A DNA stretch of 64,000 bases from Spirogloea muscicola (taxonomy: Eukaryota > Streptophyta > Zygnematophyceae > Spirogloeales > Spirogloeaceae): contig WELB01000001.1 in NCBI GenBank assembly GCA_009602725.1, positions 573,267 through 637,266 of the forward strand. The letters are read 5' to 3'. Positions 246 through 60,236 of the stretch are shown piece after piece. How positions within the stretch are numbered: the stretch's first letter is position 1; each line of letters opens with the position of its first letter. The notes below the pieces were generated by a model. It saw only the letters and a program-made list of their open reading frames with translations, was not told the origin of the DNA and did no database searches. The position numbers and the translations under genes were made by a program.

Positions 246-524
246 ACGAAATTTCCCTTTTCTATGGGCGAGCACATTCTTCTCTCTATGGGCGCGCACT
301 CTCTTCTTCTCACAGCCCTCCGCCCCTTTGAAAGAAAGTGGCTCTCCCAAAGGGGACGAGGGGATGTGAACAGCCAGCCCGATAAGATTTTGACAAGGGC
401 TAAAACTGTGTTGATTCTTGAACTGTGTTCATTCTTTTTCTTGGGCTGCTGTTCCAGCCCATATCCTCAATGGGCGAGCCCTTTCTTCTTAAAAGCGCTG
501 AAGCCCACAGGAAACCAAGTAGCT

Positions 525-2000: not shown

Positions 2001-2194
2001 TCGTCTGAAGAAGGATACAACTTTGGCAACGCGCTGTACGCACTGTTCTCTTTCCTTGTCCATTCTTTTGGGCTGGCCTCTCACAGCCACCAGTCAATTT
2101 GGCCGCGCTTTCTCTCTTTCCAAAAGGGGGCCGAGAAAAAGGAAAACATCCGCTTCCGAAGGTGTCGAGGGGCTGTGAAGATGCGGAGAGAAGG

Positions 2195-2736: not shown

Positions 2737-2848
2737 AAACGAAGTGCGCTCTCCCAAGCTCACTTCTCCCCTCCACACGTTCTGACATCGCGTTTTCAGA
2801 CCCCTCCGTCATTGTGGCCCCTTCGACCCTTTGTCAGTTCTTTCCGGG

Positions 2849-2970
2849 CTGGCATTTCACAGCCCTTGCCCCCATTGGGAGAGCCACTTCTTTCCTAATC
2901 TCTCTCCCGAGAAAGTGTGGCACTTTCAAAAGAGGCAAGGGCTGTGAACAGCCAGCCCAGAAAGAATGAA
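2849..2970. repeat. Pair of opposed stem-loop tails
   Basis: A plus-orientation tail (GGGCTGGCATTTCACAGCCC then TTGCCCCCATTGGGAGAGCCACTTC) at about 2852-2895 is followed by the same motif reversed (GGGCTGTGAACAGCCAGCCC) at about 2942-2962. The two copies could pair with each other as well as fold individually. Confidence 0.6.
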
Positions 2971-3225
2971 TGAGGTGCAAGGGCCGAGAGGCGCCAGAAC
3001 CACACAGCGATGCAAGCGACTACAGCGATGGGAGCCTAGTAACCCCCGGCAAAAGCCAGTGCAAAGAAGTGGGGCTACATGGAGCGAGTGGGGACGGGCG
3101 CGTGGGCGGCGGGGCCCCCGTCTACAGAGGCGCGGGCCCGCCATCTGGGGCGCGCCCCGGGGGCCCCCGCTCCGCCAGACGGCGCGGCGCCACGGCCGGG
3201 CCCGCCGGGCGGCCCACAGCCCCCT

Positions 3226-3476: not shown

Positions 3477-6400
3477 ATGGCCGCCAACGCGGACGCCGTG
3501 TCGACGAACTTCGGCGACAGCCCCAACCTCATCCTGCGCAGCACCTCGCGCTCCGAGAAGTCGTCCAGCCCCATCAGCCCCACGCCCTTCTCAGGTGCGA
3601 TGAAGCAACCATTGGCACCTTCGATCTGACCCCTGGAGACTGGTCTCACCGATGTGGTCTGCACGTCTGCTACCATCAGAAGGTTTCCGAAGGCCGACGG
3701 GGGCCCTGGTGTGTACACCCCATCTGCAGTGGTTCCGATCATTGCAAGCCAGACATGGAGGGCCCCCTAAAATCTTTCATGGCCTGGAAGCTCAGCTACA
3801 TTCCCTCTGCCGTGCTGTAAGCTTGCCGTCCGCTTACAGCTTGCCATGTTTCCGTTCTTGCGCAGGGAATGGAGAGCACCACCAGGGCCAGCAAGGAGGG
3901 TGGTGGGGCCGGGGAACCCGCGGCCAGTCCCTGCTGCGTAGCACTAGTGCCCCGGCCGGAGGGCCGCTGGACATCAGCATGGCGCAGCGCAAGGGCCTCT
4001 TCCTAGCCTTCAAGCAGGGCCTCGGCAGATCGCCGCTCATGGCTGCCTTTGTGTTCCTGCTGGGTTTCTTGACGGCCATGTGGTCGTCGTCGGTCTTCCT
4101 CCACAACATCGACCCGCACAAGGTGTCTGCCAAGTGCGTGGACCAGGGCGGACAGGAAGTCGTTCGCCGCCTGCTATTGAGCACCAAGCTCGGTGGCTCC
4201 AATAACCTGCCGCAACTCACCCAGCTTGGCACTGGTACGAGTGCAATTAAGTTGGTCTTCTAGATCCTGGTTAAGAACATCTGAGAATGTGGAAGGTTGC
4301 TCGCTACAGGCAGTCTCATCCAGTCCAAGAAGTGGTATGCTGATAGTCAGTCTGCATCGCTTTGCTTCTTTGAAGCAGCAGCGGCTCTAGTGCAGGTGCA
4401 GGAGCTCAGGGCTGACGAGCTGCATAGTATGTTGATGACTGCTGCACTGCCAAACTTAATGACCTAGCTGAAGTTGCCCCATTTGGCCGTGCAGATGGCT
4501 CAGTGGCGCTACCCCTTGAAAGGCCCCTCTCATTGACAATCTTCTGTGCTCCGAAAGGCTACACTGGAGAGAAAGACGACGGCCAGAGACGAGCCCTGTT
4601 GTCTTGGCTTCGGCTGCAGCCCACGCCCAAAATTGTCATCTTGGGAGACGATCCAAGCTTCTTTGAGCTGGAAAGTGAGTGGTTACTTGACTGCACCAGC
4701 ACAGTTATAGTACACATGTAGACACCACACCATACTTTCAGTTGTCCACCTCGTGAAAGTACTGCTCCTAAGTTGTGGTCTTGTCTTTATGGTCTTCACG
4801 CCAAGGCGTCTGGGCATTGGCGATTCCTGACTGTTACGTACAAAGTAAGAGAATGATCCTTACAATGTTTGCAACTGTATGCTGTGGCTTCTTGCTTTGC
4901 AGAGGAATTCCCTGGCCATTTAATAGTCGAGAAAAATATAGACTCCAACTTTCTGGGTGTACCCCAGTTCCACAGGTTGCCTTCCATCGACTCTGCTTTG
5001 GACTTATCATCTGCATGTGCTTCATACAGGGCTGTAGAGAAGCATTGAGTATTGTACTTATCATCTGCATGTGCTTCATCCAGGGCTGTAGAGAAGCTTC
5101 AAGTATTTATGATTGGAGGACTTGCAGATACTAGACCAGAATATTGACCTATTATTGCTCAGGCTTACCAAGTGCGATTCTTGTGTGCCGTGTCTCAGTA
5201 TGATGGCCCGTGCCCAGGCAGCAGATACTGATCTCTCCATGATAATCAATGGGGATATTATCCTGCTCAACGATCTGCTGCCAGCAGTGCAGAAGGTTGC
5301 TGCATATTTCAAGGACTTTGTGGTAACTGCGGCGCGCTGGGATGTCAAAGAGGATTTTCCCTTCAGGTGAGGCCAGCGTAGCCAATCCTCTCCTCTGGCG
5401 GCAGGTTTGGAAATTGTGCACGTCGGTGGAGTGCTGTGTGCCTATTCTGTTTCTATGTAATAGTATCCTTAGCTCGGTCAAGGGTTCTCTGTCTGAGAAT
5501 GCAATTTGTACTTATGCCTGCATCTATGTGGTGGTGCCACAAGTTGCATGTACTGTTTCTGGTATTTGTTAGCTGCTGAAGGCATGCCACTTTACTACCC
5601 TGCCATGTGAGAGCTAATGTATGTGACTATCTTGCCTTGCTCTTGTCTGCTGCAGCTTCGAAGGTCTGCCAGATTCTATTCAGCCACCCAGGGGACTCTG
5701 GAGCACAAAGGTTCCGCAGAAAGAAATTGATGAGGAGGTCATCTATAACTACACGCGCGCCAATGGAAGTCTACACACATATGGAGGAGTGGACTTCTGG
5801 TTGTGGAACAACTCACCTGCACCACTTTACTCTGTGAGACCACCATCCTTCATCATCCATTTACTATTAGCTGCTCACTTGACATTGTGAGGTTACTACA
5901 TCATCAATCACTTTGGTCTAAGCTCTGTAGTAGCAATGCTGTTACATGCACGAGGCCAGTGCAAACTTTTGTTTTAGTAATGGTTATGCTCACACCGAGT
6001 GTTGCTTGGCACAGGTTATCATGCCACCATTCGTGTTTGGGCGCGGGAAGTATGACAATTGGATGACTCACGAGATGATATTCTCTGGCACCCGGGAGGT
6101 TATTGATGCGAGCGATTCAGTGACCAGGTAATTTTCCAATTTCCAGTCATTAGAGTGGCTGTGACTTATCAGCAGCTCTAGATGGTCACTGGTCCTCTTG
6201 ACTTGTATATGTTGTGAGACAGTGTCTTCAATCATCACACTCTGGTGCTCGATTTGCCATGAGGATGCAGCTGATAGACCTCTACAGCGTACCTGCATTC
6301 ACTGTCATGAAATACTTACACACTTGCCTGTTGTTTGCGCTTCCAATTAGAGCAGCATCCATGTCGCGCATTCATATGCTCATGTTGCTATGGACAATGC

Positions 6401-8934: not shown

Positions 8935-11590
8935 GGTTGGCCAGGCACCTGGACGACAGAGGAGCAGGGCCAACAATAAGATATGCTTCTGCAAGGAGGA
9001 GACACAGGTTGCTTCTGTCAAGCTCTGGCCCACCTTGGCTCGTTCCTTAGCTAAAAGTTCTAAATGGGCATACTGCCAGCCGGCAGCGATGTAGGATATT
9101 ACAAATCTGGCCGCCGTGTTGTCTCAGAGGAAGCACTTAGCCATGGCCTATGACCCCAACCCACCTCCACGTCTTGGGAAGAGTGCATGTTGCTATATGG
9201 TGAAGCTGCAGGTGATCTCTGGTGGCCAGACATCTCTGAGCTTTGCCTAGAGTGTTGAGTGTTAGCGTGTTACCAAGTGTCACCTTTCTCACTATGGATT
9301 GTGTAGTATGTCTGACCAACTGGAGGTGGACTCAGGTGACTGGTCATCTGGCCTCCCTTCAGTAGAATGACGAGCATTAGGTCGCCCGAGCACATAATCG
9401 TGGTGGCCAAGCAAGTCTATTATCTTATCTGTTGTGAGAGACAACCAGCAACCAAGGCATGTCTATGGGCTTCAGATTGTGTACGTCCTTGTCCCTCTCC
9501 ACGTCCACACACGAGCAGGATCTCTCTACACTTGTTCTCTTTCGATTGCAGTAGTATGGCAAACCAGCAATTGTGGTGAACCAGTCTGTCTAATACATCA
9601 GTATGGTGAACCAGCGAATCGTCTGGGTAATTATCTGACTCAGCTTAGTGGGCCGTGGAGCCTCCCTGTAGAAAGAAACCGGCTCTTCAAAGCGGGGCAA
9701 GGGCTCTGAACAGCCAGCCCGACAAGGATTGACAAGGTCCAAAGGGGTGCCCTGGTACACTGGGTTTCACTACCAACTCTGGGTCCGAGGCGACGGCTGC
9801 GCCGGTGCCCCCCAGCCATGGCTGCCACTCCGTGAGGGCGGAGCCCCAGCTGTCTGTGTGACTGTGTTGCTGATCTCTTGGTGAGGTCGGAATCTGTGTG
9901 AGATCGGAGCCCCGGCTGTCTGTGTCAGTTTGACTGGTCTCTGTGTGAGATCGAATCCTGTGTGCCGCTATGAGGGAATCTCTGTCTGAACCGCCGTGAA
10001 CGACAGGAGCAACATCAGGAGCAGCCGGAGCACAAGACTCGTCCTCAGCAGCCTATGAAAATTCAAGCTCAATGATGTAGCACTCGTAATATGGCCACTG
10101 CATGATGCTTGGAGTGAAAGAGTAACCGCAGCATGACTCTTAAATGTTTCAGTTTCCTTGTTTTTGAAGTTCATATATAGTTTGTGCTCAAGCTCCTCAC
10201 ACTGGTCGACTGGCACCTCCAAGAACAGCTTATCAGTCTCTCACTATGAGTAAATCAAGTCCAGGTCATGCTTAGGGCAGCATGGAAGAAGCTATACTTG
10301 CATCTGGAGTTGTGATTGTTGCAGGGTGAAAAAAGGCTCTATGTGGCTTTCCAGTCAAACTGGCCTCTTGAAGAGGTACAGATATCTAACAACATTGCAG
10401 TATCTTGAAGGTCACCGCGCTTAAGTGACATTCGACCTGCCGTCTTATCCTCAAATGTACGCAGAGGAGCACAGTCTAGCCAACAGTACTTTGTTGAGAA
10501 GGAAGGGAACCTAGGTCTTCGTTTTTCTTCATTCGCTCCGTGATCGAAGGGAGCACGGTAGCTGTACTGTTAAGAACGACAATCGGCAACAATCTCGAAA
10601 ATTCGTCGTCATAGCTCTCAAACGGAGAGGAGCATAGAGTTCCAATCAAACAGTAATGGAGGTGATTAAAAGAAGACTTCAGTCTTTCCTTAATCTATTT
10701 CGTTTGCCGTTTAGGCATGCAGAGTAGCAAGGGCGGGTGGCTCAGCAAGGATGATTTGGCGAAGCAATGAGACGGGTTCAACATATCGAAGAGCATCAAA
10801 GGCCAAAAGGGGTTCGAGATTGGGAAGAAAGTCACCACTATCAAAGGGGCTCTTTCAGAAGGCGCGAGGGCTGTAAAAGCCAGCCCCAAAGGAATAGACA
10901 AAACACGAAGGTGCCGAACAGAGCTGAAACACACGACCAAGCTAAGTACCAGAAAGGCTGGTCACTTAACTAGGAAGGAGTCACTCCGCCCCATTTTCAT
11001 CCCGGGCTTCCTAGGTAGCCCTTCTTAGCCTTCCGGGCTAAGTATTACTAGATGGAGTAATGATCACCAGCAATGTCCCTAAGACAACCTACCATTACCG
11101 CTTATGGGTCTTCTACCACTTATTGTCTTCCACCATGGTCAACTGTTCAGGGGCTAACGTTTTTTCAATGTCAACGTCTACATCTAACAGTGGTCTCCAC
11201 AACATATTCCTTGTGTTTCTGATTCAGCGCTGATACCTAGTTGTCAAGCGCTAAGACCTCAGGCTGCGTAATTTCTGCTTGAAGAAGCAAAATAATGATG
11301 TTGTGTCCGCATGGTGTCCGAGTGGTGAGATTCTAGCCTCTCCAGGCTACTCTCAAGCCATCTATGCGGATGGACAAGCAACCACGTATTGTGGTCACAT
11401 CCTCTGCGGCTGTCCTCATTGACCGGCAACTTCTGCCCAGCTTTCCTTGTCCGTGATTACCGGGCACACATACCACTGCCTCTCCCGGGTGCCCAGGTCT
11501 GGCAGAGAGGAATCAGCTCAGCGAGTAGCTGAGAGTTTTGAGACACGGAAGAAGCATCAAAAAATGGACACGGTTGGGACCGAAAGCACC
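8935..11590. other. Intergenic stretch without a supported gene
   Basis: This holds the 3' flank of the first RAY1-like gene, then mixed sequence with two isolated reverse-orientation stem-loop tails (about 9697-9735 and 10,860-10,900). No exon chain, conserved domain or RNA gene can be recognised. Short frames near 9,970-10,220 and 10,695-10,970 show no family resemblance. Confidence 0.6.
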
Positions 11591-12475
11591 AGGAAACGGA
11601 GGCTCACCCGAAGGAGGGCGGGCCCCCAGGCCCGATGGCCCCGCACTTTACCACCTTCTGCGTCAGAGCTCTGGCTCTGGCTCCCCAAGTTAGCTTGTCC
11701 AAATTGCATGTATTCAATTGTGAATAGCAATGAGAGAAGCAGCAGGGGTACTACGGTTTTCCTCTAGCCAATCCTCCGGGGGGCCGACAGACTCCACACG
11801 CGCCGCGTCGACCTGGTGGCGTCCAGGCCTGGAGGCGCGCGCGCATCATCGCTGATGTGGTCATCACTGATGTCATCGACCGCTCCAACCCGGGGCTCTC
11901 TGCCTCGCGGGCTGGCCACGCTGCGGCGAAGAAGAAGGCCGCTCGCAGCAAGGCGGCCAGACACGCCGACCACCCGGCTGGTGACGAGTTCGTACCCCTG
12001 GCCGTGGACGTGCACAAGGCTCTCGGGTCCCAGTGGCTCGACCTGCTGGCCAGGCTTGCGCGGCGCGCTGTGTCCCGCAGGCGAGGTGAGCCGGCTGACT
12101 TCAACGCCGCTGGCTCGTGGGCCCAAGTCTATCGCATGCGTTTGTCAATCTCCCTTCAGCGGTCCATGGCCCACGCCTTGCATCTGCGTGCTGGCCGTGC
12201 TCTCGCTGCGGCCTCCGGCTTTCATCGGGGGGACAGTTTTCCGTACGTCGGATTTTGGGCTCCTCACTCGTAATTACTGAGTGGTCCATCCTCCCCCCGT
12301 GCTGACATAGCATCTTCAGGCCCCTTCGTAGCTGCTTAGCGCTTTAGGCCCCTCCGTCATTTGGCCCCTTCGAACCTTCGTCAACTCTTTTCGGGCTGGC
12401 CTTTCAAGAAGAAAGCAGCTACAAACCACACCTTTCCCAGCCCTTGCCCCCATTGGGAGAGCCACTTCTCCAGCC
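11590..12475 (+). mobile_element. LINE 3' part with endonuclease-like C terminus and 3' tail
   Basis: This is one of the two longest copies of the window's LINE family. A zinc-knuckle-like segment (LxLPKLACPxC) near 11,675-11,715 is followed by an endonuclease-like region. That region has ADVVITDVIDRSNP, SRAGHAAAKKKAARSKAARHAD and FVPLAVDVHKALG at about 11,855-12,030, and a final helix LQRSMAHALHLRAGRALAAASG at 12,155-12,220. Next comes an untranslated tail with repeated GGCCCCT(T/C)CG and TTAGCGCTTTAGGCCCC motifs, and a disrupted stem-loop near 12,393-12,460. Reading frame is broken and the reverse transcriptase is absent, so this is a dead 5'-truncated copy. The endonuclease label is inference. 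Confidence 0.7.
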
Positions 12476-18349: not shown

Positions 18350-20299
18350 GCCGGCCGGGCCACGAGCGAGCCCCGGCGCCGCCGACGCGCCGCTCGCGGC
18401 AGCNGGCGCGGCGGCAGCTGCAGTGGGACCCGGCGGGGGGAGGGCGCGGCAGGGCGGACGGCGGAGCTGGGCTGGGCTAGCAGCATGGGCCCCTTGCCAC
18501 TATGCCTGACACCTCGCTCCTCCGTCCCAGGAGCGAGCAGGTGCGCTCCTCACGTACAAGCAACGGCGGGTCCTCTCTCCGTGGACCACCCACTGCACGC
18601 GGTATGGCCAGCACACCCGGCGTCGTACTTCTGCTGCCAGATGGCTACCGTTAGCTGCTGACTCGGGCTTCCCACCACTTCCTGTGTTTGCCTTCTCGTG
18701 GGGCCCATGCCTTGAAAACAATCGTGGCCTTTTTGGATGGACTGTGTATTGACTCGCTGGGCCTTCCGTTCATGCCATGCGCACCACGCGCCTTCTCTCG
18801 TCCCACTTCTTACACACCATCTCAAATCTGCACTGGCCAGTCACCCATTGGGCTTTGAGTGGCACCCGACGACTGGAGGCTTCCATCTAGGCTGGCCAAC
18901 CTTCGCCTGCTGAGACGGACTCCCAAGCCCGATATTGTCTAGGCTGCTCCCTTACAAGTAGGCACCGGCCTCTCAACTGACGCCTATTTATGTTTACGTC
19001 TACGCAGTTTTACTGAGCTGGCCATTCACAGCAACCGCCCCTGAAGAGCCAGTCTCCAGGCAGCTCCATAACATCAGTCAGTCCTGGCTGAAGTAACAGA
19101 CTGCCATGCATGCTGGCTAGGTTGTAGACTAGGCTTGTGACACTCTTATCAACCTGGAGTCTCCACCAGTCACCTCCACTGTTTTCTGCGTTCTCCTGCA
19201 AGATCCAGCTGCAATGACGGACCAGCACAGGGCACAGAGTGCTGCCAGGACCTTCTCGTACTGACCACCAACTTTTTGGCGCCTCCATCAGGAGCACTTT
19301 ACCATCCCGTCCTTTGTTGGCTCTTGTCACACCTCACTCCAAGAGCAGATTGCATTCAGGTGTTGGTCATCCAAGTCCTCCACTCAATGTCCAAGGTGAA
19401 ACCAAGGTGTCCACCACCTTGGCTTCATGCCACAAAGTTGAAGCACAACCTGCCCCCAACTCCAACACAACTATTCGGCTGCCACTTTCCTGGAGTACAC
19501 CCTTCCAGTGATAGGTACCTTCAAAGCATCAACCACACGGCCTAACATAGCTTTTCCTTAACAATAGATCCAGTACAGGGCTGTTTCCCTCTTGACTTTA
19601 GATCTTAGCACCCAAAGTCTGTGTACGATAAATTAGATCAGTATTCGGACTTTCCTTGGGGTTGGTCAAGCTTTGGGCCACCGTAGCCCATTGAGTGCTC
19701 TACCTTCTGATCAAATATTTCATATGCTCTGCCTCATTGATTCTCGCGGATAAGCTTTTAAGTCCAGATTTGGTTGGCCTTCCACCCCTAGCCACAAGTC
19801 ATCCCCATAGTTTGCCTGTCTCCCTATAGGAGACCCATGGATCACAGAGTTTTCTTCCGCCTACGGCTTGAGATTCGAAGAATGCGCCTAAGTACACATC
19901 GAATGTGCTGCCATCGGAATGCCACTGATGAAAGTGGACAAAGATCTCTATCCCTACACCCTGAACCATGTCTCTCAAGTGATTAATAATTTGCTCCATC
20001 AGATGCTCCAACTTCTTTGGCATGCTCGCAACATGGGCTTGACCAGGCAAATTGCACAATGATCTTGCAGCTGGCATGTTTGAATGAGGTATTGCTGGAC
20101 TGCAGGCTGACTGATGCACACCTGAATCTGTGGGCTTCAAGTTGCTCAATGCCAGCACGCAGGCCAGCATAGCTGGTCAAAAGTCCAACAAATCTGCTCT
20201 CACAAATTGATCACACTCTTGTCTTCCTGAAAAGGCTACACTTGCTTCAAGAGCACTCCAGAGAGGGTACTTAAAGGGCAAACGGAGCAGACCTGCAAC
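18350..20299. other. Intergenic region with a degraded coding-like stretch
   Basis: 18,508-18,535 contains a 9-bp perfect inverted repeat CTCGCTCCT/AGGAGCGAG. A reverse R2-like piece lies near 18,760-18,800 and a diverged stem-loop tail near 19,015-19,050. From about 20,170 down to 19,010 the minus strand shows broken stretches of protein-like sequence (for example KKLEHLMEQIINHLRDMV and LGAFFESQAVGGRKLCDPW). No domain could be named. It may be a decayed transposon or a dead gene. Confidence 0.4.
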
Positions 20300-22317: not shown

Positions 22318-24039
22318 ATGGAGTCGGATCAGGGGAAGCTCTTCATCGGCGGCATCTCGTGGGAGACCACCGAGGAGAAGCTGCGCGAGCACTTTCAGGC
22401 CTACGGCGAGGTCGTGGACACGGTCATCATGAAGGACCGCGCCACTGGCCGTGCGCGCGGCTTTGGCTTTGTCGTTTTCAGCGACCCCGAGGTCGCCGAC
22501 CGCGTCGTCCTTGAGAAGCACACCATTGACGGTCGGCAGGTGGGTCATCGGCCCCGGCCGCCGCCCTGTGGGTCGTGACATTGCCAGTGGTGGCTGTTCT
22601 GCTGCTTCTCGCTCTGACTACTTTCAAGTCCCCATCACTACACATTGTATGCCTCCAATTCCTCTTTGACTGCGACCTAGTTTCAAATGCGTGCCTTCCG
22701 GTCTCCGTTATCGCCCATGCAACACGCACATGGGGTGTCTTATTGAGCGGTCTGCATATACTTCTGCTCTCTGCCTGTGCAGGTCGAGGCTAAGAAGGCT
22801 GTTCCGCGAGACGAGCAGAGTAGCATGGCCAGGGGCTCTGGAGGGCCCAACAGCGGAGGTGGTATTGGTGGCGGCGGCGGCGGTGGGCCTGGTGGCGGGG
22901 GCATTGCCGGCGGAGGCGGCGCTCAGGGCGTCAGGACGAAGAAGATCTTTGTGGGCGGGCTGGCATCGTCGGTCACGGAGGACGACTTCCGGAAATACTT
23001 TGAGCAGTTTGGGAACATCACAGACGTAGTCGTGATGTACGACCACAACACGCAGCGCCCCCGGGGCTTTGGCTTCATCACGTATGATTCAGAAGATGCC
23101 GTAGATGCCGTCCTGCAGAAGAACTTTCACGAGTTGAATGAGAAGATGGTGGAGGTCAAGCGGGCAGTGCCCAAGGAGCTCTCGCAGCCGGGAGGCAGCA
23201 CTGGCCGAGGGAGTGCTTACGGAGGCAGAGGAGGTGGCTACGTGGGCAGCTATGGCTATGGGGCTGGAGCGGGGGGCAGCCCGGGCAGCTATGGTGGACG
23301 AGGTGACAGATATGGCCAGGCGCAGCTGTTGCGGGGAGGCTATGGATATGGGAGCAGTTACGGCGGAGGCGCTTATGGCGATACTGCACTGTATGGAACT
23401 GCTAATGGTGGCTATGGGGCCGACGCTTATGGTGCCGGAGGCTATGGGTCCCTTGGATATGGGGCGACGGCGGCTGGCAGCTATGGAGGGGGGTATGGCA
23501 GCCCTGCCGCATACGGCGCCTCGGCGGGCGGAAGGACTTCCTACGGCGGAGGCTACAGCAGCGGCGCTGCATCTGCATATGGATCCAGTCCAGGCAGCGG
23601 CAGCGGCTATGGAGCGACGAGCGCTTACGTGGCAGACGGGTCAGGAGCTGCAACTGGAGGAAGCGGGGGTTATGTACCAAGCGCATACGGCTACGGCACA
23701 GGTGTCGACGGCTATGGCAGCGGTGCTTATGGTGCTTTGAGAGGAGGCGCCTATGGCAGCAGTGCTGCCACGTACGGCACTACTGCTGGTGGTGGGGGAG
23801 CTAGTGGTAGCTATGGTGGGTATGCTGACATGTATGGCACCTCTGCGTATGACCAGACCGCTTGGGGTAGGACTGCCGCAGGGACAGGAGTTGGGGTAGG
23901 AGGCTATGCAGCGGCGACTGACAACAGCATAAATGGCTCCGCAGCCTATTCAGCAACGTACGGCGTCGCAGGCAGGCAGACTCAACGTGGCCAGGATGCC
24001 AGATTTCGGCCATACCCCACCACTGATCGGGCAACTTAG
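22318..24039 (+). CDS. Two-RRM hnRNP with Gly/Tyr/Ala-rich tail (RNP1-like)
   Basis: 492 aa in two exons, 22318-22539 and 22783-24039. RRM1 begins at once (KLFIGGISWETTEEKLREHF, with RNP1 octamer RGFGFVVF). It is followed by the VEAKKAVPRDEQ linker typical of plant RNP1/musashi-like hnRNPs, then a glycine run. RRM2 (KIFVGGL..., RGFGFITY) covers about residues 127-203. The intron interrupts the end of RRM1. The C-terminal 280 residues are low complexity, built of repeated SYGGxYG/AYG units with regularly spaced tyrosines. Such tails drive assembly into RNA granules in related proteins. Nuclear/cytoplasmic mRNA binding is expected from the family; targets are unknown. Confidence 0.92.
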
Positions 24040-32019: not shown

Positions 32020-32190
32020 ACTTCCCCTGGCCCTTTCTCGTCCTTTGTTCATTCTTTTCTGGGCTGGCTTTTTCCAGCCCCTATCCTCAATGGGCGAGCC
32101 CTTCTATAAAGTAAGAGAATGAGAGAAAGGCGCGCGGGGCGCAGGAAATGAAAAGGGAGGCCAATTCAAGCCAATACACACTTCAAGCAT
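32020..32190 (+). repeat. Stem-loop tail followed by R2 repeat
   Basis: A LINE-type 3' tail with stem GGGCTGG/CCAGCCC (32,060-32,079) and CCTATCCTCAATGGGCGAGCCC, then an R2 unit (AAGGCGCGCGGGGCGCAGGAAATGAA...GGCCAATTCAAGCCAATACAC). The same tail variant occurs at 47,368-47,414. Confidence 0.6.
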
Positions 32191-32544
32191 GCCTGAGCTT
32201 GGATTCAGCCGTCTCCGATGGGGGCCAGGGGAAGCGCTAGGAGGGAAAGGAAAGGCCGCCAGTCAGGCGACGAAAGTGGGAGCCGGAGACTGCTGCGCGC
32301 CATCGGGCGCAGGCGGAGGGCAAACAGCCGCTGACAGGCTGCTGTCGGTGGCGGCAGTGGCAAGCGGCGGCGGCGGCGGCGGCGGCGACGGCGGCGGCGG
32401 TGGCGGCGGCGTGGGGGTGGGAGTCGCCGGGGGCAGCGTCCACAGCACTCACACGACGCGGCTGTCCGGACTACAACGACGCTGTACGGCCAGCTGGGTG
32501 CCTACAGACGGTTGTTCGGAGCCACAGGCTCAGGCAAGCAGAAG

Positions 32545-32860
32545 AAGAAGAAGAAGTGGTACTCCCAATGGGGGCAAGGGCTGCGAAAAGCCAGCCCAAA
32601 AGAATTGACAAAGGTTCGAAGGGGCCTAAGAGCGTTGAGCAGCTACAAAGGGGCCTGCAGATGCGTTGGGAAAAACAGGGGGAGGATGGATCACTCAGTA
32701 ATTACGAGTGAGGAGCCTCAGATCCGACAGACTAGCTGCCGGGAAGCTATCACCCTGACGAAAGCCAGAGGCCGCAGCAAGAGCACGGCCAGCACGCAGA
32801 TGCAGAGCGTGGGCCATGGACCGCTGGAGGGACACTGGCAAACAGGGCACTCTTGGTGAC
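32545..32860 (-). mobile_element. LINE 3' end with complete tail
   Basis: On the minus strand: C-terminal helix LQRSMAHALHLRAGRALAAASG, terminal SDLRLLTRNY and stop near 32,695. About 110 nt of untranslated sequence with GGCCCCTT motifs follows, then a stem-loop (GGGCTGGCTTTTCGCAGCCC) at about 32,578-32,597. The end is CCATTGGGAGTACCACTTC running into a TTC-rich microsatellite. It is truncated at its 5' side and defines the order coding end, spacer, hairpin, 3' end. Confidence 0.7.
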
Positions 32861-34223
32861 CCCGTATCACCTCTAGGAAGTCGGATGAGCTGAGGGGACG
32901 GCCTTCCGAGGGGGGGCCAAGCAATGCAATGCAAAGCAAATGAAGCAAAGGGGTTAATGGCAGCGAGCCGCCGGTGGGGCGACGAGCCGTCGCTGGCACT
33001 CAAGCGCGGCCGCCAAGTTCGTCCCGGCCTCGGCTGGCGGCGGCCAAAGCGGAGGCCGAAAGAAAGGCCGCTGGTGAGAAGAGAGATCGAAGGCGTGCAC
33101 CGTGCGCGTGAAGTGAGTAGGAGGCTAAGCCGAGCCCAGTGAGCCCAGTGAGCCCAGTGAAGTCCAGGCCAAAAATCAATGCAGTGGCTGACTGACGCTA
33201 CCATGACTGAGGCTACACAAAGCAAGGGAGGGGGAAAATGTGTGTCCGCTTGAAGACGAAGCGACGAGCTGAGCGAGGTGAGGGGCCAAGGTGCCTGCAT
33301 GCTATCCTGGAGTGGGAGCCGTCAGCTGCGGCGCTAAATCTCAAATCCTACACCTAAACAAGCTGCTTCATTTTCTACGATGCTTGTTGATGAACAAAGT
33401 GGTCGTGGTGGCGGTCATCAAAGTAATGAACGCTCTTCCAATGTAAGGCAATGGATGCGATAAGCCAGCCCAAAGGAATGTACAAGGGCAGAAGCACTGC
33501 GCGTCCGTGGAAGTGCCGAGCTACTGGAACCTGCTGCCCCGCCCACTGCAACCGGGGCACTCAGTCGCTGCTCACCTGGGGCTCTGCGTGGACTTTGTCT
33601 AATACTCTGAGCTTGCCTTTCACCAGCCACTGCCTCCTTCTGGAAGAGCTTCTCCCTGATTTTCGTTCTGTTACATACGCATCGTTCTGTTACATAAGCA
33701 CCTCATTTGATTCTTAGTTCTTCTTACGAATAGTCCTGGCTTGCTTTGGCCTCCCTCTCCTTTCATGTACACCGCGGGCCTTCTTCCTCCACAAGTGGCC
33801 ATTGGCCATGACTTGCCGCCTCCGGGCTGCCCTCTTCCCTGCTCGCCTGCTTGGGCTGCATTGGGTCTCCTGACCACCTCCGTGCCTCCCACTCCAGCGG
33901 GTCTCGAAACTGGTGCATGCTCCCACTTTGGTAAGACAGAGCTTTCCGACTGCTGCTTCTCGCCCTTCTCGCAGCTGCACCCTTTGATTGCTTTCAATGA
34001 GTTCTTTGTACTACTCTCTCCACCAAGTCTTCTGAACTCACCACTGCGCGGGACTGCAAGTTGTCATTAGCATCACTGTGGACCAAGGGCTCACCTCTGC
34101 CAGCAAGGCGTTTGACTACTTCGTTGCTGTTGCTGGGCTCACCAGATCTGGCGTACAATCAAGCATTGGCCAGTATCTGGTGGCAGGCACGAAATTATTG
34201 AGCTGAGGCAGGCTCTAGCCCAT
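32861..34223. other. Intergenic region
   Basis: Contains a (GAGCCCAGT)3 array at 33,132-33,158, a degenerate R2 at about 33,085-33,130, and a reverse stem-loop remnant at about 33,445-33,480. No exon was recognised. Confidence 0.5.
33132..33158 (+). repeat. 9-bp tandem repeat (GAGCCCAGT)3
   Basis: Three exact 9-bp units in intergenic DNA. Confidence 0.9.
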
Positions 34224-47186: not shown

Positions 47187-47414
47187 CCTTCGTGCCGGCA
47201 GAGCCCTCGCTGCTGCCTCTGGCTCTGGCCAGGGGACCCACTTCCAGGAGCCCAGCATCTCTGATCTGCGGCTGCTTAGCAGGGGTTACTGAGTGTCTCG
47301 TAGCAGCTTTGTTTCTGTTACTTAGCGCTTACCCTGGCCCCCTTCTCGTACTCTGTTCATTCTTTTTCGGGCTGGTTATTCCAGCCCCTATTCTCAATGG
47401 GCGAGCACTTTCTT
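47187..47414 (+). mobile_element. 5'-truncated LINE insertion with 8-bp target-site duplication
   Basis: 228 bp flanked by the direct repeat CTATAACA (47179-47186 and 47415-47422). Content: the end of the LINE reading frame (AGRALAAASG... to SDLRLLSRGY and stop near 47,283), the untranslated tail, stem-loop GGGCTGGTTATTCCAGCCCC at 47,369-47,388, and CTCAATGGGCGAGCACTTTCTT as the last bases. There is no poly(A). It gives a clean 3' boundary for the family. Confidence 0.85.
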
Positions 47415-55560: not shown

Positions 55561-55739
55561 TACAGAGCCTGAAGCTTAAAATTTATGAAGGGGTCCAAGG
55601 GGGTTAGTTGACGAACTCAAAGTGCCCTTCGGCCTCCCAATGTTAAACAAGAAACAGCTCCTCCAAAGGAGGCGAGGGCTGTAATCAGAAGACAAGGCAG
55701 CTCACAGAAGATGAACAGGCTCCTCATAAGAGGAAAGAG

Positions 55740-55800
55740 CTTGCCCATGGAGGATAGGGGCTGGAACAGCCAGCCCAAAAAAGAATGAGCAGAGTACAAG
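55740..55800 (-). repeat. Stem-loop LINE tail, reverse orientation
   Basis: GGGGCTGGAACAGCCAGCCC followed by AAAAAAGAATGAGCAGAGTAC. It is the reverse of the GGGCTGG/CCAGCCC variant, preceded by the reversed CCATGGAGGATAGG tail end. Confidence 0.6.
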
Positions 55801-57403: not shown

Positions 57404-57724
57404 GCGGCCCTACGCGGCCTATAATTGAATGACGATCACCAACGGTCACTCGCCGACAACCTGACAACAACCCATTACAGTATACCACTGACAACTCACC
57501 TTATCGCGTCGGTCTCCCACCACCGTCCTACCGACGGACCGAAGTCAACGCCCGTCGCGGCCTCAATGCCACTAACGGTATTTTACCAACGAACTAGCGT
57601 TTGCGGTCTAGCTTCAACGCAGCGTCAAAGACCCACAATCTGCTGCAGATAAGGGTCGTGTCCGCAGCGGTGGCCGTCCAGCACCTCGCGCCTTGACTCC
57701 GGGGTGCCCCATTCTCGATTCGTT

Positions 57725-58625
57725 CTTCTGTGGGCTGGCTTTGCCCAGCCATCGCCCCCTTTGTAAGAGCTGCTTATACTCTGCTCAAGCAAGATGACAA
57801 GGACAGTCTTCTCTCAAAGTAGGGCGATGTGTGAGAGAGAACGAGAGATATAGAGACGAACTCGAGTGCCAGCTTGGTGAGGTGCCTAGTCTCCAGGCAC
57901 CTTGCGTTTCTTGCGAGACCTGACAGTAATATGAATCCAGCCTGTGGGGTGACTAGTCTCCAGGCATCTGTCAAGCCTTGCCTAAGCATTGTTAGTCCAA
58001 CTATGCGTGTAGTATGACAGAATATGACTTTCCATCTCGCTGCGGTCGTCTAGGCGTTCGCCTACGTTCGTGGGCAGCCGCGCCTTGGTTGCTGCCTCTG
58101 ATTTCTGGGCGTGGCGGCAGATTTCCGGCTGCTAGCTGCTCCTTTGTGCGGTTCTTGACTACGGGTCATTGGGCACCCATCTGCTGTAGCAAAATTGCAT
58201 AGCTGCGTGCTTTGCGCGTTCTGGCTTCTTTGGACCTTGTCCTCTGTAGCTAGGCAGGCCTTTCACTGCCAATCCTTCCTTTTAGTAGCTTATTTCCTCT
58301 TTCACAGCCTTCGCCGCCTTTGGAAGAGCTTCTCTTTGTGTTAGGCTTGTGGGCTTCTATTTGAATTCTGAGCTGATGGTGAAACGAGATGGCTTGTAGG
58401 GCTTTTTTTGAGCCTGCTGATGGTAGAATTGGCTCGCGCACCGATGCCATGGTAGCACGAGCAAATTGGGCTCAGCGCTGACCTGCATTTTGGGGATGGA
58501 GGTAATGTGCTCGCGAGTCCGTTCACACCAAGATTAGCTCATGACATGCACTGATCGGCCCCATTAAGCTTGTCCTTTGCTTCTGTGCTGGCCTCTCAAA
58601 GCCAATGCCCGCCTTGGAAGAGCTT
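57725..58625. repeat. Intergenic stretch with two LINE-type tails
   Basis: Plus-orientation tails at about 57,735-57,775 (GTGGGCTGGCTTTGCCCAGCC) and 58,590-58,625 (GTGCTGGCCTCTCAAAGCC ... CTTGGAAGAGCTTCC). The latter is a diverged stem. No gene seen between them. Confidence 0.5.
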
Positions 58626-59049: not shown

Positions 59050-59620
59050 AGCACATAGAGGTCGCCAAACTCTTCCGAAGGGGGCGAGGGCTGTGAAAAG
59101 CCAGCCCGGTAAGAATTGACAAAGTCCGAGGGGGCCAAAAAGCGCTGAATCACATGACTAAGCAAGTCCATGTAGAATAAGCACTCAGTAACCACGAGTT
59201 AGCAGCCTTTAAATCGGACAGACTACCCGCCGGGAAGCGGCAGACGAAGCAAGGTAAGGCAAGGCGGCGGCGCGGGGAAATGGCTCGATCATAGAAAAAG
59301 AGGGGGCTAGCAAAGCCAGCCCCACAAAAGAATGGACAATAGCCACAAAGGCCACAAAGGCCACACAACGGTGCCGGGAAAAGAAAACGACACCAGGACA
59401 TGTAACGGTGCAGATGGCTGCGCAGTAGCCACGAGTGAGCAACAGCAAATCAGAATGGTTCGAAGCAGGAAAAGCAGCACTCCGCCCAGACCCTGAGGCA
59501 GCAGCCATAGGAAGCGCTAAGAAACCAAAGCACACAAAGAAAGAAAGCAGCTACAAATTACTCAGTAACCCCTGCTAAGCAGCCGCAAACCAGAGAGGCT
59601 AGGGTCCTGGAAGTGGCCAT
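59050..59620 (-). mobile_element. Three consecutive LINE 3' ends in the same orientation
   Basis: On the minus strand three terminal reading-frame ends follow one another: SLSGLRLLSRGY near 59,610-59,570; SDLLLLTRGY near 59,455-59,425; and a third beginning SLSDLKAA near 59,225-59,190. Two hairpins are complete (GGGGCTGGCTTTGCTAGCCCC near 59,305-59,326 and GGGCTGGCTTTTCACAGCCC near 59,088-59,107). This is best explained by repeated insertion at or near earlier tails. Confidence 0.65.
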
Positions 59621-59807: not shown

Positions 59808-60236
59808 NNNNNNNNNNNNNNNNNNNNNNNNNNNNNNNNNNNNNNNNNNNNNNNNNNNNNNNNNNNNNNNNNNNNNNNNNNNNNNNNNNNNNNNNNNNNN
59901 NNNNNNNNNNNNNNNNNNNNNNNNNNNNNNNNNNNNNNNNNNNNNNNNNNNNNNNNNNNNNNNNNNNNNNNNNNNNNNNNNNNNNNNNNNNNNNNNNNNN
60001 NNNNNNNNNNNNNNNNNNNNNNNNNNNNNNNNNNNNNNNNNNNNNNNNNNNNNNNNNNNNNNNNNNNNNNNNNNNNNNNNNNNNNNNNNNNNNNNNNNNN
60101 NNNNNNNNNNNNNNNNNNNNNNNNNNNNNNNNNNNNNNNNNNNNNNNNNNNNNNNNNNNNNNNNNNNNNNNNNNNNNNNNNNNNNNNNNNNNNNNNNNNN
60201 NNNNNNNNNNNNNNNNNNNNNNNNNNNNNNNNNNNN
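59808..60236. other. Assembly gap (429 N)
   Basis: A run of N, preceded by G-rich and followed by C-rich homopolymer-like sequence (60,237-60,270). Confidence 0.99.

Follow-up and report, generated by a model that had tools for sequence, protein, structure and literature searches.

A conserved, hairpin-bearing 3' tail in an abundant, dispersed R2-like LINE superfamily of Spirogloea muscicola

The window analyzed here is the whole stretch of 64,000 nucleotides at positions 573,267 to 637,266 of the forward strand of Spirogloea muscicola contig WELB01000001.1 (assembly GCA_009602725.1). It contains reading frames with protein-kinase and RRM domains, several LINE fragments and many copies of a short LINE tail. 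A region at 19508-19897 on the minus strand matches large-subunit rRNA of bacterial type (65.1 bits) and may be an insert derived from an organelle; a run of N occupies 59808-60236. The hairpin reported at the 3' end of a LINE near 32.6 kb is located at 32578-32597, on the minus strand of the window. The LINE-related features are as follows.

32548..32841 (ends approximate), minus strand: 5'-truncated LINE copy of subfamily A, with the end of its ORF (stop 32695-32697), 3' UTR and tail; defined by matches to 12 copies elsewhere, with 96-98% identity to most of them and 93% to one.
32554..32620, minus strand: conserved 3' tail of the 32.6-kb copy, with hairpin 32578-32597; covariance model 70.8 bits, fold z -1.05.
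32541..32556, minus strand: TTC run that terminates the 32.6-kb copy, read from the sequence; homology between copies stops in or near this run.
47224..47411, plus strand: LINE copy of subfamily B, with its last 22 codons, 3' UTR and tail; tblastn 100% to residues 1329-1350 of the L031 ORF, model 75.5 bits.
47348..47408, plus strand: predicted two-helix fold, with P1 arms at about 47348-47361 and 47396-47408 around hairpin P2 at 47369-47387; RNA folding, -23.3 kcal/mol, z -5.28, 0 of 200 shuffles.
59278..59508, minus strand: LINE copy, with its last 28 codons (59425-59508) and tail (59278-59348); coding match and covariance model.
59067..59130, minus strand: second, separate tail downstream of the 59.3-kb copy; coding search and covariance model.
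11734..12270, plus strand: putative fragment of the LINE C-terminal (restriction-endonuclease-like) coding region; translation compared with the alignment by eye.
12369..12467, plus strand: A-type tail with a 25-nt insert in the hairpin loop, flanked by the duplication CCTTTC; by eye, model 60.6 bits.
32037..32104, plus strand: solo B-type tail; model 80.8 bits, coding match absent within 400 nt.
417..484, plus strand: solo tail; coding search and covariance model.
336..404, minus strand: tail back to back with the tail at 417..484; orientation survey and covariance model.
2822..2889, plus strand: solo tail; coding search and covariance model.
2915..2981, minus strand: solo tail; coding search and covariance model.
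2048..2113, plus strand: solo tail, D-like; coding search and covariance model.
9677..9743, minus strand: solo tail; coding search and covariance model.
10844..10909, minus strand: solo tail; coding search and covariance model.
55734..55800, minus strand: solo tail; coding search and covariance model.
57708..57775, plus strand: solo tail; coding search and covariance model.
33429..33493, minus strand: solo tail; coding search and covariance model.

The tail is about 67-75 nt long and consists of a GGGCTGG/CCAGCCC hairpin of 5-8 bp, about 20 further nucleotides and then CTTTCTTC. The motif GGGCTG-N3..14-CAGCCC occurred 11 times in the window against 0.25 expected, a number reached in 0 of 100 shuffles; one of these matches (23261-23282) falls inside a glycine-rich RRM reading frame and is not a family member. 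A covariance model was built from 89 tails, many of them among the sequences later scanned. It gave 25 tail matches in the window at E<0.01 (27 at E≤0.1), in agreement with the more than 20 scattered copies announced by the sequence-only reading. In the window and eight 10-kb stretches together, 44 copies were found at E<0.01, the 19 outside the window coming from three of the eight stretches. The nine places where free-standing copies had been listed (near 450, 2070, 2860, 2950, 9710, 10870, 32070, 55760 and 57740) all fit the model; because all nine sat in its training alignment, this shows consistency and is no independent test. In the 153 Mb of genome scanned (471 contigs), the exact core ATTCTTTT-N0..2-GGGCTGG-N3..8-CAGCCC had 8,073 matches and the backwards pattern had 0. 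A 141-nt query from the LINE 3' end gave at least 42 matches at 92-100% identity, with the best 40 of 2,243 candidates scored. An Rfam scan at gathering thresholds found no family at the tail.

The position of the tail within the element was then defined from the reading frame and from the copy ends. At 32.6 kb the frame ends in SDLRLLTRNY and a stop, 97 nt upstream of the hairpin. In the 30 copies whose stop could be identified, the hairpin lay 67-98 nt beyond the stop in 26 and 150-232 nt beyond it in 4. The order proposed beforehand (frame end, spacer, hairpin, short end) is thus present, and the 80-130 nt given for the spacer was roughly right. The 59-kb copy has both of its tails (59278-59348 and 59067-59130) 3' of the frame end. 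When the window copy was compared with 12 others, homology ended 26-33 nt past the hairpin in 11 of them and 48 nt past it in 1, with a TTC run common to both sequences of this last pair at the point where homology stopped. Random 3' boundaries relative to the hairpin, an outcome named beforehand as refuting, were therefore not observed. The thirteen A-subfamily copies (12 fetched and that of the window) share nearly one 3' point and differ in their 5' starts. Information content anchored on the right arm of the hairpin (99 of 107 tails usable) remained high for about 28-30 nt before falling in subfamily A (19 tails), subfamily B (32 tails) and subfamily C (16 distinct tails out of 17); it was weak throughout in the 31 other tails. 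Tails end in CTTTCTTC, followed by short TTC/CTT repeats. These observations support the view that the LINE family terminates in a conserved tail whose 3' end is nearly constant.

Sequence identity between subfamilies was 66% over the last 51 codons, 50% over the UTR from stop to tail (49% when shuffled) and 75% over the tail (60% when shuffled). The tail was more similar than the UTR in 341 of 342 between-subfamily pairs, which were taken from 406 pairs of 29 LINE-linked copies and are not independent. These 29 copies were gathered by tail similarity, which favors tail conservation; a count starting from the protein lessens this bias and does not remove it. In that count, 44 of the 59 LINE C-terminal ends were followed by a tail within 300 nt: 7 of the 8 ends located in the window and in arbitrary stretches, and 37 of the 51 in targeted loci. 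For random places the figure was 7.3%, and 15 coding ends had no tail nearby. The family thus shows the stringent-type feature of a 3'-terminal stem-loop conserved above a diverged UTR. An argument of this type has also been used for plant L1 elements, whose 3' ends are conserved (PMC3747384). Altogether, the description of the hairpin as the conserved 3' terminus of an abundant, dispersed LINE superfamily largely holds.

Three fetched copies contain an open frame of 1,350-1,357 amino acids from stop to stop. Pfam analysis of one 1350-aa frame identified the reverse transcriptase RVT_1 (8.4e-16, 59 bits); C2H2 fingers were below the cut-off (E 0.1-0.4) and aligned weakly with those of R2. No APE endonuclease family was present among the matches of this frame at E≤1, and the combination of APE and RLE that characterizes Dualen/RandI was not found. 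When a four-sequence profile was compared with PDB structures, the only matches at E<0.001 were R2 proteins, with E values of 2e-8 to 5e-8 and the RT as the region matched. In the C-terminal region, all four sequences share a CxC...HxxxC motif, with a spacing that departs from the CX2-3CX7-8HX4C knuckle rule (PMC5678591), as well as conserved D-x14-D and K residues. The endonuclease region had no Pfam match and no R2 match in profile searches. A protein search with the C-terminal part returned 22,729 candidates, of which 124 were scored. An apparent match of the C-terminal protein to Hax3 was put down to a probable compositional artefact, and the AlphaFold prediction for the window's own C-terminal fragment (pLDDT 46.6) was too poor for use. 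We read CxC...HxxxC and D-x14-D with its lysines, at the level of motifs, as a putative R2-type knuckle and restriction-like endonuclease, an architecture described for R2-type LINEs (PMC5678591). The single ORF of about 1,350 amino acids would then comprise probable N-terminal C2H2 zinc fingers, RT, a zinc-knuckle-like motif and a restriction-endonuclease-like end.

As in LINEs generally, the element has an RT gene, variable 5' and common 3' ends, and no direct repeats bounding the frame in the three long copies, two of which carry an inverted 947-bp 5' end. The fixed 28S rDNA site of R2 proper was not found for 13 copies, which have different flanks; the flanks of the L011 and L015 copies lie in related repeat sequence. 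Other RTs of this genome, e.g. G000 C33:908349-908831, reach 140 bits with RVT_1 against 59 bits for the R2-like LINE, and other RT families with long frames therefore exist in the genome. Locus L015 also has an open frame on the plus strand (4484-5008) containing LLLDNAPSH..., which we take to resemble a DDE-type DNA transposase.

The sequence-only reading had rested its structural argument on covariation in the hairpin, both sides of the seventh pair being said to change together. This was assayed on 89 of the 107 collected tails, 71 of them distinct. In the 71 distinct tails, pair 7 was G-C in 36, unpaired in 34 and gapped in 1, and both sides never changed together: G-C simply alternates with a broken pair, and seventh-pair covariation was abandoned. 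Covariation over the whole stem showed no excess either, its score being reached by 63 of 500 shuffles and the number of paired cells by 259 of 500. The lack of stem covariation, the other outcome named beforehand as refuting, thus holds for the hairpin. The other six hairpin pairs hardly or seldom vary and therefore hold little covariation information.

RNA folding revealed an outer helix that had been overlooked. In several B and C tails the hairpin is predicted to be enclosed by pairing between an upstream box, UUGUYCAUU, and a downstream box, AAUGGGCGA. Eight tails were folded. Four of them displayed the outer helix in its standard register: 47345 and L031, which are near-identical (z -5.28 and -5.04), 55728 (z -2.85) and L020 (z -2.79). 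In the B tail 32038 the same downstream box paired with another upstream stretch (z -3.33), and the L011 tail formed an imperfect outer helix (z -1.64). Two tails of subfamily A, to which the hairpin at 32578-32597 belongs, folded otherwise (z -1.05 and -1.42).

Statistical support for the outer helix was assessed on the 71 distinct tails, with cells counted on an alignment made from sequence only. Paired cells amounted to 71.0% against 68.4% (sd 0.8) after shuffling (0 of 500), and the covariation score was 0.172 against 0.148, a value reached by 7 of 500 shuffles. Slid registers scored below the outer-helix register on both measures; the helix was drawn from the fold of one aligned sequence, and these controls therefore lean towards it. 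Pairs changed on both sides showed no excess (329 of 500 shuffles reached the count), and the register slid by +1 had 12 doubly changed cells against 11 in the outer-helix register. Further pair types gave a weak signal (50 of 500). Duplex energies of true versus swapped partners gave no signal on 45 cluster representatives (3160 of 5000) or on all 100 tails (1320 of 5000). A test limited to the boxes gave 0 of 5000 on 100 tails and again on the 66 tails with well recognized boxes. For 33 distinct box pairs the figure was 47 of 5000, and for the 45 cluster representatives, which include decayed copies, it was 3011 of 5000; the larger sets hold many related copies. Structural support thus comes from the predicted outer helix and not from hairpin covariation, with two further tests mixed. 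The outer helix, for which support is modest, is likely to form in the B and C subfamilies and remains unproven in subfamily A.

These mixed results leave some weight to another explanation, in which it is the DNA or RNA sequence of the tail that is conserved, such as a signal for 3'-end processing or a site for a protein; the protein would then read the sequence, and the hairpin would be incidental. This explanation draws on stem bases that hardly vary without covarying, and on flanking boxes whose sequence is conserved as well; A-type folds that are little better than shuffles and two outer-helix tests that show nothing on cluster representatives point the same way. However, the outer helix in its register pairs better than slid registers and shuffles, and two B-type folds have z values of about -5. 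We therefore consider a role of the sequence alone to be unlikely, though not negligible.

Tails were frequently found inside or next to one another. Of the 29 nested or near-adjacent pairs listed for 286 kb, 13 start at model positions 35-39, which is the hairpin loop; 3 of these 13 matches are weak (E 0.68 to 2.1), and the beginning of the conserved right arm partly determines the start position. Genome-wide, 147 joins were detected at the loop (a tail end, then the right arm of another hairpin within 8-18 nt), 99 at the T-run before the hairpin and 51 at the upstream box, the reversed pattern giving 0 in each case; the search words differ in length and frequency, and a few of the listed matches look like chance. 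By eye, L019 3140-3390 contains a new B copy between both halves of an old C tail, with the duplication CTTTGCCAGCC, and L011 9260-9470 contains a nested tail with the duplication CTTTC. Other target duplications seen by eye were CCTTTC and TATCC, AATGAT, and CCTCCGAG with five extra bases; several young copies had no clear target duplication.

The loop starts, the split tail in L019 and the 147 loop joins without a reversed counterpart could suggest a structure-directed self-nesting, in which the LINE specifically targets the loop in the hairpins of older copies of itself. However, joins also occur at the T-run and the upstream box, and nesting therefore takes place at several pyrimidine runs; moreover, the start position is partly fixed by the right arm, and some of the loop matches are weak. 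Loop-specific targeting was demoted after these controls and appears improbable. A preference for the loop is not established; new copies that land within tails seem to target pyrimidine runs in general, which is consistent with primer pairing to the CUUUCUUC end of the RNA.

Two further candidate structures were also discarded. Outward-facing tail pairs were considered as a two-headed insertion product, and neighbors within 1 kb were outward in 12 cases, inward in 18 and in the same orientation in 50 (131 matches). A TIR-like element was suggested by L029 (G000:C338) and L031 (G000:C20), whose LINE copies are 99.98% identical over 5,451 bp, with different flanks, and begin at the 5' end with an inverted 947-bp copy of the element's own 3' end. 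The whole junction was limited to these two loci among the best 40 of 339 candidates, and it was therefore read as a two-copy chimera rather than a family structure. The left and right flanks of the L029 element form an inverted repeat, with 86.8% identity over 212 bp, about 40 of which are tail, and one arm of this repeat contains an extra tail insertion.

LINE coding sequence was present within 400 nt upstream of 49 of the 107 tails and was not detected for the other 58. Among the regions upstream of these 58 solo tails, 17 had no match to another tail and 33 had best matches of 41-154 nt with differing extents. The remaining 8 pair up: L013_8695/L013_6700 over 500 nt, the two copies of the L029/L031 chimera, L030_5105/L019_3423 over about 250 nt and L017_5393/L014_5660 over about 180 nt. 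Upstream of the 58, tRNA-like genes and A plus B boxes were absent and no 5' module recurred in many of the tails, so the suggestion that short copies might carry a SINE module of their own found no support. Despite the 58 tails lacking nearby coding sequence, a separate SINE family that borrowed its tail from the LINE is thus highly improbable, given these upstream regions and a tail-only insert of about 60 nt that lies inside another tail with the duplication TATCC. Solo tails are best read as extreme 5' truncations within the UTR, and not as SINEs.

On balance, we consider it probable that an R2-like LINE superfamily, both abundant and dispersed, has its 3'-terminal recognition tail in this sequence, and that the solo tails are truncated copies. 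The LINE protein would bind the folded tail of its own RNA and nick the target in a pyrimidine run; the resulting purine 3' end (such as ...AAAG) would pair with the CUUUCUUC end, where target-primed reverse transcription would start. Such a priming role had been put forward together with the hairpin. It is still the best reading, by analogy with R2Bm and ZfL2; the covariation offered as evidence for it was wrong. More tentatively, the tail may be a compact RNA tag at the terminus, about 70 nt long and made of two helices, which is kept across subfamilies that are only 60-70% identical in protein and would be the natural counterpart of the 43-nt minimal R2 tag; its pyrimidine loop and runs in genomic copies would serve new copies as landing sites.

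In R2Bm, a small two-stem core of the 3' UTR is recognized, and in vitro a version of 43 nt is sufficient for priming (PMC10499050). The present family resembles R2Bm and R2Tg in its single ORF with probable N-terminal C2H2 fingers, RT and knuckle-like motif, and in its RT profile match. Unlike R2, its copies are dispersed over the genome, its short tail lies at the terminus and carries a TTC run, and the endonuclease region had no profile match. UnaL2 and ZfL2, LINEs of the L2 clade, have an APE-type endonuclease. ZfL2 ORF2 proteins bind their cognate 3' stem-loop (PMC4176376), and UnaL2 ends in TGTAA repeats (PMC3747384). In contrast to these, the hairpin of the Spirogloea tail can sit inside an outer helix and the terminal repeat is TTC.

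A monocot L1 lineage has its last 45-50 nt, with a hairpin, conserved above a diverged element (PMC3747384). The plant and green-alga L1 elements (Ohshima) belong to the L1 clade and have poly(A) ends and SINE partners, with compensatory stem changes reported in the account cited. The present family differs from them in its R2-like RT and TTC end; no SINE was found, and compensatory changes in the hairpin showed no excess. RLE LINEs and R2 relatives that lack one fixed site include the HERO clade and cockroach R2-like elements (PMC4640811, PMC7650587), and the likeness to these is one of behavior, namely non-site-specific insertion. Nested LINE insertions are also described for Zepp in a green alga, with one cluster per chromosome (PMC3446292), whereas the copies of the present family are dispersed, and nesting accounts for only a part of the pattern. 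Among the titles and abstract openings of the open-access literature retrieved for green-algal RLE LINEs, Zygnematophyceae LINEs and stem-loop-tailed RLE LINEs, there was no account of this LINE family.

With copies that number in the thousands and fall into several subfamilies, with open frames and with a short tail predicted to fold into two helices, this system makes it directly testable which RNA feature is recognized by an R2-type reverse transcriptase, and how this feature evolves when the element is not tied to an rDNA site. It would thereby connect the work on the R2 core tag with the literature on stringent-tail LINEs.
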